DNA of 64,000 nucleotides, taken from Bacteroidia bacterium (GTDB lineage Bacteria; Bacteroidota; Bacteroidia; NS11-12g; UBA955). The notes under the pieces are model-generated. The model searched no databases. It was given only the letters and a program-made list of their open reading frames with translations, and was not told where the DNA came from. Location of the stretch: NCBI GenBank assembly GCA_023653095.1, contig JAMNXP010000001.1, positions 512,853-576,852 of the forward strand, given 5' to 3'. Position 1 is the first letter of the stretch; each line of letters opens with the position of its first letter. Below are positions 56,785 through 62,168 of the stretch, one piece after another. A program made the translations under genes and the position numbers.

Positions 56785-59490
56785 ATGGCAAAAATCCGTG
56801 TTGGAATAATTTTTGGCGGCCCTTCGAGAGAGCGCGAAGTTTCGTTTGCTGGCGGACGTACCGTATACGACAACCTTGATAAATCGGTATTTGAACCGGT
56901 TCCACTTTTTGTTGACAGTTTCGGATCGATGGTGATTTTGAATTGGGAAAACATTTACAAAGGCAGTATCCGCGATTTTTATCCACCGGTAGAATTTCTA
57001 CCTGAATTGCCTCATGGTTTTCAATTGTATGCAGAGCAGCTTGATTCCGTGTATGACCCAATCAACGGGCATACCGTTAGAATGGCTATGTTAGAAACCA
57101 TTGGTCAACCCATTGCTCTCGAAGACTTGAAATATGCCATTGATTTTGCATTTTTAGCCTTGCACGGCACCTTTGGAGAAGACGGAAGCATTCAAGGTTT
57201 GTTGGAATGGCTAGGTATCCCCTACTCGGGTTCGGGCATTTTACCTTCGGCCATTGGAATTAATAAATCGGTTCAGAAGAAACTTCAATCTCGATCAAAT
57301 CTGTTTGTCAATCAATTTTCGAGCATCAAACAGGAACAATGGATCAATTCAGATACGGTTGAAAAACATCAATTATTTCAAGAATTGATCAGCCTTTTGG
57401 GAGATAACATGGTAGTAAAACCTGCTCACCAAGGTTCGTCTTTGGGCGTAAGTATTTTGAAAGAATGTAATTTTGAGCAGTTTTGCGAAGCCGTTGATTT
57501 GGCTTTCTTCAAAACCTTTATGGATCCTGAAGAATTCAAATCAAAACCTGCTGATCAGCAGATTCAGTGGATCAAGGAATTTACTGATTTCAGAAGTGGC
57601 CTGGGGTTACCCTTGTGGTTGAATGACCAAAAAGTAATGCGTCCAGATGAGTTATTGAAACTCATTTTACGCGCTGAGGAAACCATCGAATTAAGAGCAT
57701 TTGACAGTGAATCTGAAGTACTCGTAGAATCTCTGATTGAAGGAAAAGAGTTTTCATGCATCGTGGTGGAGAAAAATTCACGCGACATCATTGCCCTTCC
57801 TCCCACCGAAATCAGAAAGTCAGGCGCCCTGTTTGACTACAGAAGTAAATATTTGCCTGGGCTCAGCAACAAGGTGACCCCCATTGAAATTGAAGATGCT
57901 TGGATTGATAAAATTCGCAAAGCCTGCTGTGAATTGTATCGCGAACTTGAATTTGAAGTATATGCGAGAATTGATGGTTTTATTTCTTCTTCGGGGGACG
58001 TTTTCCTGAACGATCCCAACACCACCAGCGGTATGATGCCCAGCTCGTTTTTCTTTCATCAGGCTGCCGAAATTGGATTGAATCCCAGTCAATTTATATC
58101 CTTCATCATTGAAACGTCCCTCAGAAATAGAATTGAAAAACATCCTAACGGTAATAAACACATAGAACTGAAACAGCTCATGTTAGACCTGATTCACAAT
58201 CCCTCGAAAAACAAAACGAGAAAACGCAGAATTGCGGTTATCATGGGAGGTTACAGTTTTGAACGACACATCAGCATGGAGTCTGGTAGAAATATTTACG
58301 AGAAGATCAGTTCCAGCGAAGATTTTGAAGCATTGCCTTTGTTTTTAGCGGGAGATTCTAGTGGATATGAACTCTACAGATTGCCTCTGAATGCCATGTT
58401 AAAAGACAACGCCGATGACATTAGAGATAAGGTTTTGAACTTTAAACCTCACCCCGTTTTGTCAAGCATTCAGCAAGAAGCTGAAGGAATCACGCTGAAA
58501 TACAATCCGTCGGGCGCGCAATTCAAACCAGAAAAAATAACCTTACACGAGTTAAAAAATGAGGTGGAAGGTGTGTTTATAGCCTTGCACGGAAGACCGG
58601 GTGAAGATGGAACTTTACAAAAAGACCTGAGCGATTATGGAATTTATTTCAATGGTTCTCAATCACATAGCTCTGAAATCACCATCAATAAATACCACAC
58701 CAATCAAAAGTTGAAGCAACTGGGATTTTTGGTAGCGCAGCAAAAAATGCTTTCAAAAGTTGAATTTAGCGGCAATCCAACCGAATCAGTAGAAAAGTTG
58801 GTTGCAGAATTTGGACTTCCATTGATTGCAAAACCAGCAGATGATGGTTGTTCAGCAGCGGTTCGAAAGATTAAGTCGGTTAAAGAGTTAGAAGATTTCT
58901 GCACTTTGATTTTCAGAGATTCTATTGAACTAGATTCAGTGATTTCAGCCCGACTTGGAATTTCCATTTACGATGAACTTCCTCGGAAGTCTGAATTGTT
59001 GATTGAGCAGTTCATAGACAAAGGCAATTGTGAACGCTTTTTGGAAGTTACCGGTGGTATGCTTACACACATAAACGAAGATGGAACCTTGAGGTATGAA
59101 ATGTTTGAACCATCTGAATCATTGGCAGAATCTGAAATTTTGAGTTTGGAAGAGAAGTTTTTGGCTGGAGAAGGACAAAATCTCACTCCATCGAGGTTTT
59201 CAAAAGATGCAAAGGAACAGGAACGAATCTCCAACGAAGTCAAAGGCACTTTGGAAAAAGTGGCGCGCGCATTGGATGTGACGGGATATTGCAGAATTGA
59301 TGCGTTTGTGAAAATTTACAGCGATGGTAAAGTGGAAACGTACATCATTGAAATCAACTCTTTGCCAGGCATGACGCCAGCAACCTGTATTTATCATCAG
59401 GCGGCAATAAACGGCTACAAACCGTTTGACTTCATCAAAGGCATTCTGCATTTCGGACAGAAATATCAACAAATTGGAAGCGCACAATAA
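56785..59490 (+). CDS. ddl: Tandem D-alanine--D-alanine ligase (two ligase units fused)
   Basis: 901 residues, about twice the usual length, because two complete Ddl units are joined. Unit 1 (1 to about 470) has GGPSREREVSFAGG, LHGTFGEDGSIQG and KPAHQGSSLG, but its metal-binding loop is NDPNTTSGMM rather than E-I-N. Unit 2 (about 478-901) starts MGGYSFERHISMESG and has LHGRPGEDGT and a standard EINSLPGMTPA loop, but its ATP-grasp loop is KPADDGCSAAV. Joins D-Ala to D-Ala for peptidoglycan. The two units may have divided tasks, or one may be regulatory. Followed by a PASTA gene. Confidence 0.9.
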   Translation: MAKIRVGIIFGGPSREREVSFAGGRTVYDNLDKSVFEPVPLFVDSFGSMVILNWENIYKGSIRDFYPPVEFLPELPHGFQLYAEQLDSVYDPINGHTVRMAMLETIGQPIALEDLKYAIDFAFLALHGTFGEDGSIQGLLEWLGIPYSGSGILPSAIGINKSVQKKLQSRSNLFVNQFSSIKQEQWINSDTVEKHQLFQELISLLGDNMVVKPAHQGSSLGVSILKECNFEQFCEAVDLAFFKTFMDPEEFKSKPADQQIQWIKEFTDFRSGLGLPLWLNDQKVMRPDELLKLILRAEETIELRAFDSESEVLVESLIEGKEFSCIVVEKNSRDIIALPPTEIRKSGALFDYRSKYLPGLSNKVTPIEIEDAWIDKIRKACCELYRELEFEVYARIDGFISSSGDVFLNDPNTTSGMMPSSFFFHQAAEIGLNPSQFISFIIETSLRNRIEKHPNGNKHIELKQLMLDLIHNPSKNKTRKRRIAVIMGGYSFERHISMESGRNIYEKISSSEDFEALPLFLAGDSSGYELYRLPLNAMLKDNADDIRDKVLNFKPHPVLSSIQQEAEGITLKYNPSGAQFKPEKITLHELKNEVEGVFIALHGRPGEDGTLQKDLSDYGIYFNGSQSHSSEITINKYHTNQKLKQLGFLVAQQKMLSKVEFSGNPTESVEKLVAEFGLPLIAKPADDGCSAAVRKIKSVKELEDFCTLIFRDSIELDSVISARLGISIYDELPRKSELLIEQFIDKGNCERFLEVTGGMLTHINEDGTLRYEMFEPSESLAESEILSLEEKFLAGEGQNLTPSRFSKDAKEQERISNEVKGTLEKVARALDVTGYCRIDAFVKIYSDGKVETYIIEINSLPGMTPATCIYHQAAINGYKPFDFIKGILHFGQKYQQIGSAQ

Positions 59491-59509: not shown

Positions 59510-60127
59510 ATGTCAAATAGTTTCAATCCTTCGAAAAACCTATTGGTAAATATTGGATTTGCTTTAATGGTTGGATTACTTTTACTTTTCATGGCCATCC
59601 AAGGTCTGGGTTGGTACACCAACCATAGCGAGAGAATTAAGGTCCCCAAGTTAACCGGAAAATCATTTGACGAGGCCAAGATTGAATTGGATCTTTTAGG
59701 ACTGAATTGCGTGATTATTGATTCGGTGTACAGCGAGAAACTACCCGCCTTTTCTGTAGTAGAACAAAATCCGCCCATCGATATGGAGGTTAAACCCGGA
59801 AGAACCATTTATCTGACTATCAATAGCGGAAACAAACCTAAAATTAAGGCACCAAAGTTGACCGATATGAGCATCACCTTGGCTAAGGCTGTATTGAAAA
59901 ACAGAGGTTTCGAGTTGGGCAGCATTTCATACACCTACGATGAAATTGGGAACAATCTTGTAGTTGAGCAATTTTATCGCGGTAAAGCTTTAGAAGCAGG
60001 CACACTGCTCCCCAAAGGGTCAACCATTGACCTTAAAGTCGCTTCTACGGACAGACAATATCAAACTACTACAGATTCTACTGGAATCATCAACGATGAA
60101 GGTGTATCTGAAGATTTTGGTATTTGA
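59510..60127 (+). CDS. Membrane-anchored PASTA-domain protein
   Basis: 205 residues: one N-terminal membrane helix (about 12-32), then two PASTA domains (about 44-110 and 112-180; VPKLTGKSFDEAKIELDLLGL and APKLTDMSITLAKAVLKNRGF). PASTA domains bind peptidoglycan fragments or help cell-wall enzymes. No kinase or transpeptidase domain is attached. Its place behind ddl fits a cell-wall role. Confidence 0.88.
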   Translation: MSNSFNPSKNLLVNIGFALMVGLLLLFMAIQGLGWYTNHSERIKVPKLTGKSFDEAKIELDLLGLNCVIIDSVYSEKLPAFSVVEQNPPIDMEVKPGRTIYLTINSGNKPKIKAPKLTDMSITLAKAVLKNRGFELGSISYTYDEIGNNLVVEQFYRGKALEAGTLLPKGSTIDLKVASTDRQYQTTTDSTGIINDEGVSEDFGI

Positions 60128-60224: not shown

Positions 60225-62168
60225 GTGAGATTGTTTAATTCAACATACCTAGTTAAATCCCTTTTGGGAATTGGACTTTTCATGGGTTTTTCTCCGCTTG
60301 TCAAAGCGCAAAATTTGTCCGTTGTTCCAATCATGGAAACTCAAAGGAGCAGATCCATTGAAATACATAAAAATCAATCCATTCTAGCTTGGCAAATTAC
60401 AGATACATTGAATCTTCCCTTTTTCGAAGACTTTGCTGATAACGAAGGGTTTCCCAGAAAAGAATTTTGGACCGATAAACAGGTTTGGGTAAATAATGGC
60501 TTCCCAATGGGAGCTCCCAATCAAAATGTTGCCACCTTTGATCATTTAAATCAGTTTGGCAAGCCCTACAGTTCCCTATCTAAGAATTATTCAGTTTACG
60601 CCGATAGTTTAACGAGCCAGCCCATCAATCTTCAATTTTATAAATTAGGAAATACAACATACCCCTACAAATTGACTGATAATGTGGTGTTGAGCTTCTT
60701 TTACCAATCCATGGGAATTGGAGATCAACCTGAACCCGAAGATTCCTTGATTTTATTCTTCAAGGGACAAAACAACCAGTGGCATAAGGTTTGGGGTGTA
60801 TCGGGTCATGCAAGAAAACCCTTTGAAGAGGTTTTTGTATCATTGAACAAGCAGGAGTTTTTCATTCCTGATTTTCAATTTCGTTGGGTTAACTACACAA
60901 AAGCAACCGGTAATTTAAATCACTGGCACGTTGATTACATCCGAATGGATAAAAATAGATTCAAAGGATTCAATGATATTGAGGATGTAGGTATTGTGAC
61001 TGCGGGTACCGGATTGTGCTTTGATTATTCCAACATTCCCTACAGCCATTATAGGTTGAACAAAAACGAAAGTCAAGGAAACGGTGCTTTTGTTACTGTA
61101 AGAAATCTAAATGAGGCTGCTACTGTTCAAACGCGTTATTCTTTGAAGGTTTTTAATCAATACCAACAAAAACTATTTGACCAAGATTTTGCCATGAGTT
61201 CGAGAAATATTCTTCCCATGGCAGACTCAACGGAACCATTCAACACTCCCTTTTTTGATACCCTTTCAGGTCCTACTCCATTGCTGAGTTACAATTTCTT
61301 TATAAATCCTCAAAGTAACGATCTTACCCCCATCAACTACAACACCAAAAAAGACAACAATCGGTACACCCTGAATCATCAATTTCAACCCTGGTATTCC
61401 TACGATGATGGATCTGCTGAAGGTGGATTTGGATTGGATTACGCTTATTTAGGAAACATTAAAGGGCAGTTCGCCATGGAGTTCAATACCTTAAGTAATG
61501 ACACTCTCCGAGGATTGTCTATGTACTTTACCCAAACTAAGGAAGACGTAAGCTTTAGGAGCTTCAAACTTAGAATTTGGAAAAAACTATCACCCATTGG
61601 AGGAAAAGACATTGAAGATCAGCTCATTTATGAGTTTCCAGTAGATAGACCCATTTACAGAGACAGCACCAATCATTTTGCTTATTTCTTCTTCGATACT
61701 GCCATCTTCCTTCCAAAAGGAACCTATTACGTGGGTTGGCTTCAAAACATGCCTTACATTCTAAATGTGGGCTATGACAACAATTATCGTTACCAAGGAA
61801 AAGATCAATACAATCCGCACCTTTTTTATAATCTCTTGGGAAGTTGGGAACGTGCAGACTACAGCATCAAGGGTACTCCAATGATCCGAATGATGTTTGG
61901 TGAGCGCGCAAACTATTCATTTTCAACACCTAAAATTGAAAAGCCTACCGTTAGAGCATATCCCAATCCAGCGAAAAACTTTATCACCGTTGAATCGGTG
62001 AATGCGGTGGTTTTATCTGTGCATATTCTTGATGCGGCCGGACGTTTGGTGAAAATTGCGGATCAGCAAAACCACATAGACATCAGTTTACTTCCGTCAG
62101 GAACTTATTACGCAAAAGTATTTACGGTTGACGGCCGACAAAACAGCGTCAAATTTCACAAACTTTAA
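60225..62168 (+). CDS. Secreted protein with type A T9SS sorting domain
   Basis: 647 residues, GTG start, signal peptide ending near VKAQ. A large beta-rich middle with no domain I recognise; the last 75 residues (AYPNPAKNFITVES to KFHKL) are the type A C-terminal sorting signal of the type IX secretion system (PxPNP-like start, GTYYAKV near the end). Probably attached to the cell surface. Directly followed by the multihaem cytochrome gene, 3 nt downstream, so the two may be co-expressed. Confidence 0.88.
   Translation: MRLFNSTYLVKSLLGIGLFMGFSPLVKAQNLSVVPIMETQRSRSIEIHKNQSILAWQITDTLNLPFFEDFADNEGFPRKEFWTDKQVWVNNGFPMGAPNQNVATFDHLNQFGKPYSSLSKNYSVYADSLTSQPINLQFYKLGNTTYPYKLTDNVVLSFFYQSMGIGDQPEPEDSLILFFKGQNNQWHKVWGVSGHARKPFEEVFVSLNKQEFFIPDFQFRWVNYTKATGNLNHWHVDYIRMDKNRFKGFNDIEDVGIVTAGTGLCFDYSNIPYSHYRLNKNESQGNGAFVTVRNLNEAATVQTRYSLKVFNQYQQKLFDQDFAMSSRNILPMADSTEPFNTPFFDTLSGPTPLLSYNFFINPQSNDLTPINYNTKKDNNRYTLNHQFQPWYSYDDGSAEGGFGLDYAYLGNIKGQFAMEFNTLSNDTLRGLSMYFTQTKEDVSFRSFKLRIWKKLSPIGGKDIEDQLIYEFPVDRPIYRDSTNHFAYFFFDTAIFLPKGTYYVGWLQNMPYILNVGYDNNYRYQGKDQYNPHLFYNLLGSWERADYSIKGTPMIRMMFGERANYSFSTPKIEKPTVRAYPNPAKNFITVESVNAVVLSVHILDAAGRLVKIADQQNHIDISLLPSGTYYAKVFTVDGRQNSVKFHKL

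Follow-up and report, generated by a model that had tools for sequence, protein, structure and literature searches.

A tandem fusion of two D-alanine:D-alanine ligase units in Bacteroidia, with non-canonical active-site residues fixed in one half

Architecture and active-site residues of the tandem gene

D-alanine:D-alanine ligase (Ddl) is essential for peptidoglycan, is a classical drug target, and is usually described as a single-unit, dimer-forming enzyme. The stretch of DNA analyzed here (the window; 64,000 nucleotides of contig JAMNXP010000001.1, assembly GCA_023653095.1, from a Bacteroidia bacterium) was found to carry a gene at 56785-59490 in which two Ddl units are joined in one open frame of 901 amino acids plus stop; this gene and all of its parts described below lie on the + strand. 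Pfam located both the N- and the C-terminal Ddl domain twice in the protein, at E 2.1e-44 for the two stretches of Dala_Dala_lig_N and E 2.7e-52 for the four of Dala_Dala_lig_C, both far beyond chance. The NCBIfam Ddl model scored 340.9 bits against the whole fusion, 204.6 bits against unit 1 alone, and 142.8 bits against unit 2 alone. The gene is flanked by pdxA on the opposite strand and by a gene for a PASTA-domain protein, which begins 19 bases past the stop codon. Full-length copies were found in the own family, order, and class, and the fusion is, therefore, no assembly artefact. The source assembly comprises 2.04 Mb in 14 contigs and is 74.8% complete. The nearest titled record, a contig of a metagenome-assembled genome (MAG; CAMDUE010000015.1), is 93% identical over the whole protein, and its label, Chitinophaga pinensis, looks doubtful.

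Residues are numbered throughout as in E. coli K-12 DdlB, and the boundary between the units (amino acids 474/475) was chosen from an alignment to this enzyme; the roles given to them (metal ligands, triad, acceptor pocket) follow the DdlB literature, apart from the Tyr/Phe switch at position 216 (PMC5996685). Conservation was scored in 99 distinct full-length fusions of the class, defined as frames of at least 850 amino acids in which the match begins no later than query residue 10 and extends to residue 880, with identical or contained sequences removed. Contig-broken and frameshifted copies (such as that of locus L055) and the loci of the titled-record scan lie outside this set, and the corresponding alignment (A1) holds 92 of the 99, with seven near-duplicates left out.

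Unit 1 (amino acids 1-474, 56785-58206) was assigned by Pfam, NCBIfam, and the DdlB alignment as the putative D-Ala:D-Ala ligase half, and contains an insertion of approximately 60 amino acids relative to DdlB, ahead of the VESLIEGKEFS segment. The serine loop, GSSLG (amino acids 217-221, 57433-57447), retains S150, and the metal loop, NDPNTTSG (amino acids 409-416, 58009-58032), carries the substitutions E270D, A271P, and P275S, and retains N272. D270, P271, and S275 were found in 38 of 38 own-family fusions and in all 99 class fusions, and the same 99 are uniformly canonical at E15, K97, S150, E180, E187, K215, Y216, R255, D257, N272, and S281; K144 is present in 98, with an R in the remaining one. 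Judged by its residues, the NDPNTTSG loop is a conservative change in which N272 is kept, and not a lost metal loop.

Unit 2 (amino acids 475-901, 58207-59487) was recognized by Pfam, the DdlB alignment, and comparison of the 99 fusions as a diverged ATP-grasp half, with an acceptor pocket that appears to have been rebuilt. Ten of its positions are canonical in 99 of 99 fusions (E15, K97, K144, E180, E187, K215, R255, D257, E270, and N272), and the metal loop, EINSLPG (amino acids 856-862, 59350-59370), thus retains E270 and N272 in all 99. The changes lie in the serine loop GCSAA (58846-58860; GCSAAV spans amino acids 688-693), which carries S150C and G153A, in the omega-loop (59155-59160), where K215 is kept and Y216 is replaced by F, and at 59383-59388, where S281T is followed by a C at position 282. 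C150, F216, and T281 are present in 99 of 99 fusions, A153 in 96, and C282 in 92. Neither these three fixed residues nor the D270 of unit 1 occurred in any of the 41 single Ddl compared. Because E15 is kept but C150 and F216 are present in all 99 fusions, unit 2 was not filed as a D-Ala:D-Ala ligase. The two cysteines, amino acid 689 (58849-58851, position 150, 99/99) and amino acid 868 (59386-59388, position 282, 92/99), were noted separately, and a redox switch in the acceptor pocket of unit 2 is conceivable.

The most distant fusion of the set shares 39% identity with the window protein, and since fusions down to this level keep the fixed substitutions, these were taken as old, selected features. 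Both halves are under similar purifying selection. Comparison of the window with its 93% relative gave ratios of nonsynonymous to synonymous substitution rates (dN/dS) of 0.046 for unit 1 (dS 0.74) and 0.048 for unit 2, the latter value being rough at a dS of 1.10, which is near saturation. Mean identities over 1500 random pairs of the 99 fusions were 0.522 for unit 1 and 0.536 for unit 2, and 143 of 431 positions of unit 2 are invariant across the 38 own-family members.

The initial annotation had described two fused Ddl units, each with a different damaged motif. The fusion itself is borne out by the single 901-residue frame with two sets of N- and C-terminal domains, and the motifs that had been named (GSSLG, NDPNTTSG, GCSAAV, and EINSLPG) were all found in place, with the substitutions fixed in 99 of 99 fusions. 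The term "damaged" is not supported, since the remaining catalytic ligands examined are retained by the two halves, which show a similar level of conservation. NDPNTTSG and GCSAAV are indeed altered, but the metal loop is not lost, E270D being conservative with N272 kept, and the account of a changed ATP loop in unit 2, correct for S150C and G153A, was incomplete, in that Y216F and S281T had been missed.

Distribution of fused and single Ddl

Where the fusion is present, it takes the place of a single ddl. A match was obtained in 65 of the 70 genomes of the own family, with fusions (whole or in pieces) in g1 and from g5 to g14, whereas genera g2 to g4 gave weak matches of the single-Ddl kind; at the order level and a threshold of E 1e-30, the fusion was matched by 61 of 108 genomes. 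Among 395 sampled genomes of the class Bacteroidia, the fusion query matched 179 at E 1e-30 or better, including four genomes with the truncated form described below, and a single-Ddl query matched 168 at the same threshold. No genome fell into both sets, compared with 76 expected if the two were independent, a figure to be read with the non-independence of genomes through relatedness in mind. A second single-Ddl query matched 31 of the other 48 genomes at E 1e-8, leaving 17 with neither form; 14 of these are less than 90% complete, and the rest are G130 (91%), G455 (96%), and G461 (91%, in 1670 contigs). The survey of relatives for the fusion and for a single ddl, proposed in the initial annotation, thus showed a widespread fusion and 0 of 395 genomes matching both at E 1e-30. 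Six of 296 genomes in a phylum sample matched at E 1e-40, all of them from class Bacteroidia; because the samples were drawn differently, the phylum and class fractions are not comparable. Named hosts among the best 80 of at least 501 matches include Pontibacter and Rufibacter species, together with MAGs labelled Saprospiraceae, Chitinophagales, and Sphingobacteriaceae; one further record among these 80 is labelled Saccharibacteria, and is possibly mislabelled.

A Ddl-family search of 24 genomes (20 with the fusion and four with the truncated form; 23 of them at least 90% complete), in which the matches listed reach E ~6e-10, revealed no second whole-Ddl gene among those matches, as called by profile range and frame length only. 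The non-fusion matches listed start at profile position 19 or later, and the ones that begin there, at 19, belong to frames of 937-971 amino acids that may encode carbamoyl-phosphate synthetase. Scored by single stretches, the Ddl model rose above its cut-off in 0 of the 24 genomes. MurF was found in 24 of 24 genomes of both types, in 23 above the cut-off. A second MurF match was observed in 21 of the 24, inside a frame of 791-927 amino acids, which is probably the known MurF-alanine racemase fusion of Bacteroidota.

A candidate for a second ddl in the own genome, an open reading frame for a 324-amino-acid ATP-grasp protein on contig C14 (locus L002, 1084-2058, +), was rejected, as it matched only the Pfam C-terminal Ddl domain (54.4 bits), had no Ddl N-domain match, and scored 63.1 against a TIGR01205 cut-off of 245.65. 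A frame of similar size and range is present in genome G066, and the gene adjoining the candidate is presumably PhoH-like. Two more C-terminal-domain matches in the own genome lie in frames of 562 and 452 amino acids. Spread of the fusion by mobile elements was also considered and rejected: two scans of viral contigs found no relative, 20 phage records gave partial matches, none covering 80%, and plasmid records gave nine matches, again with none covering 80%, one of these being the truncated form of Bernardetia.

The truncated form, predicted unit packing and the downstream gene

A natural truncation of the fusion marks one family, here called f68 (80 of 81 genomes, 35 of 36 genera). The protein occupies one frame of 553-677 amino acids in 78 of the 80 genomes, being in fragments in the other two, and consists of a complete unit 1, followed by a tail of approximately 100 amino acids. 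D270 was present in the unit 1 of 30 of 30 aligned members (28 of the 30 f68 loci form alignment A2). A profile of the tail, built from 30 members, matched 91 of 99 fusions within the N-terminal lobe of their unit 2 when the threshold was set at E 1e-3 (best E 5.7e-12), compared with a best unit 1 match of E 0.25; the eight fusions missed at E 1e-3 are mostly the most distant ones. In the window, the counterpart of the tail was mapped to amino acids 501-573 of unit 2 (58285-58503, E 6e-6). No GGxS-E loop was seen in the tail by eye, and the entire ATP-grasp part of unit 2 is gone, indicating that the catalytic part of this unit can be lost. AlphaFold2 modeled the tail with a predicted local distance difference test (pLDDT) score of 90-97 and the whole protein with a predicted template modeling (pTM) score of 0.89, so that the remnant of unit 2 is predicted to be a well-folded lobe. 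A related truncated protein of 623 amino acids from Bernardetia sp. Wsw4-3y2 (NZ_CP147018.1, 82783-84654), annotated as D-alanine--D-alanine ligase, also has D at position 270 by eye; its gene sits on a 602-kb replicon recorded as a plasmid.

No other Ddl was found among the matches listed in the four f68 genomes checked. Because f68 has lost the catalytic part of unit 2, and these four genomes show no other Ddl, unit 1, with D270 in place, very probably functions by itself as a Ddl that makes D-Ala-D-Ala, and E270D would be a tolerated, fixed change, given that unit 1 is the sole catalytic half in f68. The N-lobe part of unit 2 was presumably kept because unit 1 leans on this lobe. The series of single unit, two units, and one unit plus remnant offers a direct handle on the role of the second unit.

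The predicted model of the full-length fusion had a mean pLDDT of 89.6 and a pTM of 0.88, and the latter value argues for a defined packing of the two halves. Searches with Foldseek and VIA-align 2 returned only Ddl and Van ligase structures among the 50 matches listed. The best match listed for unit 1 was Thermus Ddl (6u1d; Z 37.7, 323 residues, 2.1 A), and for unit 2 two structures were tied at the top, Salmonella DdlA (3q1k; Z 38.3, 337 residues, 3.0 A) and LmDdl2 (1ehi; Z 38.1, 342 residues, 2.8 A). One report names five conserved residues of the Ddl homodimer interface (PMC6899670), which were converted to DdlB positions 70, 74, 88, 92, and 96, with DdlB having the same five. These positions were counted in 34 of the 99 fusions, hand-picked for spread. 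In unit 1, G74 was found in 32 fusions, A or S at position 92 in 32, and I, L, or V at position 88 in 33. Unit 2 has no G at position 74 (12 K, 5 Q, 5 E, and others), has A or S at position 92 in 18, and is mixed at position 88. Since the small residues at 74 and 92 are retained in unit 1 but not in unit 2, dimerization in the manner of other Ddl probably persists for unit 1, and the attachment of unit 2 may involve another face. For the same reason, a pseudo-heterodimer, in which unit 2 would replace the canonical homodimer partner, appears less likely.

A tree of the 34 unit 1 and 34 unit 2 sequences, four f68 proteins, 41 single Ddl, and E. coli DdlA and DdlB split unit 1, f68, and unit 2, taken together, from the single enzymes with a support of 0.98. 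This topology fits an origin of the fusion by tandem duplication; the branches are long, and long-branch attraction is possible. Both the fused and the single type occur in families f46, f61, and f63, in different genomes, which suggests replacement in either direction. A 1389-amino-acid frame at locus L103 was dismissed as a chance frame extension, its extra N-terminal 480 amino acids having no Pfam match and an ATG lying directly before unit 1.

The PASTA gene downstream of the fusion (59510-60127, +) encodes a protein of 205 amino acids (Pfam PASTA, 4.7e-22) with a hydrophobic N-terminal stretch, by eye a putative membrane anchor. A PASTA gene lies downstream on the same strand in 100 of the 145 fusion loci with room for it (45 without); it was absent from all 11 loci of own-family genera with a single Ddl and from all 31 loci of the truncated form. 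The linkage is ruled out as a mark of the fusion only, since 10 of 30 loci of single Ddl in the class also have PASTA nearby, in either orientation. At locus L104 (2242-5841, +), one 1200-amino-acid frame combines a double Ddl, a proline/alanine-rich linker, a hydrophobic stretch, and a PASTA domain, as if the two neighboring genes had fused. The linkage and this frame hint that Ddl can be tied to a wall-binding protein. The next gene in the window (60225-62168, +) encodes a 647-amino-acid protein with Por_Secre_tail, a secretion-system C-terminal sorting domain.

A proposed division of labor and its alternatives

The reading that we favor, with about even confidence, is that the tandem fusion is the only D-Ala:D-Ala ligase gene of its host, with a division of labor between the halves. 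Unit 1 would carry the reaction of two D-Ala and ATP. Unit 2 would be a second Ddl fold docked on unit 1, partly via its own N-terminal lobe, and would still bind ATP-Mg2+, and probably the first D-Ala too, the respective ligands being kept. Its second-substrate pocket appears to have been rebuilt by S150C, Y216F, and S281T. Most likely, unit 2 would serve mainly as a stabilizing or regulatory partner acting on unit 1, and any ligase activity of its own would use another acceptor. What the data show directly is the architecture, the fixation of the residues, the purifying selection, the lack of overlap with single Ddl, and the loss in f68 of the catalytic part of unit 2; the docking and the activities of the two units are proposed.

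Several points weigh against this reading or leave it less secure. The ATP, Mg2+, and first-D-Ala ligands kept in unit 2 fit an active enzyme as well as a sensor, and the contact between the units is deduced from pTM and sequence only. At interface positions 70 and 96 the two units do not differ, which speaks neither way. The unit 1 of f68 has P275 again (30/30 aligned), so that its loop differs from that of the fusions, and the search for another Ddl covered just four of 81 f68 genomes, among the matches listed. The own genome, at 74.8% completeness, makes a missing second ddl weak evidence by itself, and the near-saturated dS of unit 2 blurs its dN/dS.

The chief alternative is that unit 2 is an active ligase with a different second substrate, forming D-alanyl-phosphate and coupling it to D-lactate, a different D-amino acid, or some other acceptor; one polypeptide would then yield two products. 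This is possible, and was considered clearly less probable than the division of labor. The examined ligands of ATP, Mg2+, and the first D-Ala are kept in 99 of 99 fusions and the changes cluster, by the roles that the residues have in DdlB, in the second-substrate pocket; that the residues of phosphoryl transfer are so strictly conserved favors a catalytic role. The unit 2 model also aligns with a D-Ala:D-Lac ligase, LmDdl2, as well as with DdlA (Z 38.1 and 38.3), and a Phe at the 216 position decides between depsipeptide and dipeptide activity in lactic acid bacteria, as has been reported (PMC5996685). However, S150C and S281T occur in 0 of the 41 single Ddl compared, and unit 2 scores only 58.2 bits with the D-Ala:(R)-lactate model NF000206, whose cut-off is 550. 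The loss of the catalytic part in f68 argues against an indispensable second product. D-Lac stems are not known to have been reported in Bacteroidota, no search aimed at them having been made.

The remaining explanations were judged to be weaker. If both halves made D-Ala-D-Ala, the fusion would be a device for gene dosage or stability, as the Ddl fold and most catalytic residues in both units would allow; a redundant copy, however, would not need S150C, Y216F, and S281T fixed in 99 of 99 unit 2 sequences, and this explanation is improbable. Obligatory complementation, in which the halves would share one reaction path as they do in carbamoyl-phosphate synthetase, each performing a step or completing the active site of the other, draws on the presence of two homologous ATP-grasp halves with different fixed changes in one chain. 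It is rendered more improbable still by f68, which lacks the unit 2 active site and shows no other Ddl among the matches listed in four genomes. The initial annotation had suggested that the units may complement each other or have distinct substrates; distinct roles are supported by the different substitutions fixed in 99 of 99 fusions, but obligatory complementation is unlikely, given the truncated form in 80 of 81 f68 genomes. An artefact or a decaying pseudogene copy has nothing in its favor except the canonical residues missing from unit 2, and is refuted by a class-wide distribution in one frame, a unit 2 dN/dS of 0.048, and 143 of 431 positions invariant in 38 members; its likelihood is negligible.

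The fusion may be set beside known systems. Single Ddl (E. coli DdlA and DdlB; TIGR01205; PF01820 plus PF07478) resemble the fusion halves in fold and in ATP and Mg2+ ligands, and their distribution and that of the fusion are mutually exclusive. In comparison, the fusion has two units per chain, insertions, E270D in unit 1, and S150C, Y216F, and S281T in unit 2, and its unit 2 lacks the small residues at two homodimer-interface positions. The D-Ala:D-Lac ligases with an active-site Phe (Leuconostoc LmDdl2 and Lactobacillus Ddl) share F at the 216 position with unit 2 (99/99); unit 2 also carries S150C and S281T, which may set it apart from them, and falls below the NF000206 cut-off. The large subunit of carbamoyl-phosphate synthetase also consists of two homologous ATP-grasp halves fused in one chain, but belongs to another family, and, in contrast to it, the Ddl fusion has one lineage (f68) that dispenses with the second active site.

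Two Ddl units in one polypeptide are also found in plants. By the published description, At-DDL, like its moss homologue, is a fusion of two putative DDL enzymes, and is found across the plant lineage (PMC9954125); a second report places the closest sequence identity of moss Ddl with homologues of the Fibrobacteres-Chlorobi-Bacteroidetes group (PMC9434261). A two-unit DDL is, thus, already known from plants. Among the papers listed by literature searches, none was seen to describe a bacterial double Ddl. A far-reaching version of the alternative above would make unit 2 a catalytic ligase of the Phe type, linking D-Ala to something other than a second D-Ala, would imply a second, unrecognized precursor in much of Bacteroidia, and would derive the plant two-unit DDL from the bacterial fusion and not from an independent duplication; taken together, we regard this as unlikely.

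Nearly half of the sampled Bacteroidia (179/395) match the two-unit or truncated form of an enzyme of which one half has a fixed non-canonical active site. The bacterial fusion also provides a counterpart for the two-unit DDL of plants, which is so far unexplained. Activity of unit 2 with a different acceptor, if it were borne out, would mean revising the precursor chemistry of a large Gram-negative class.

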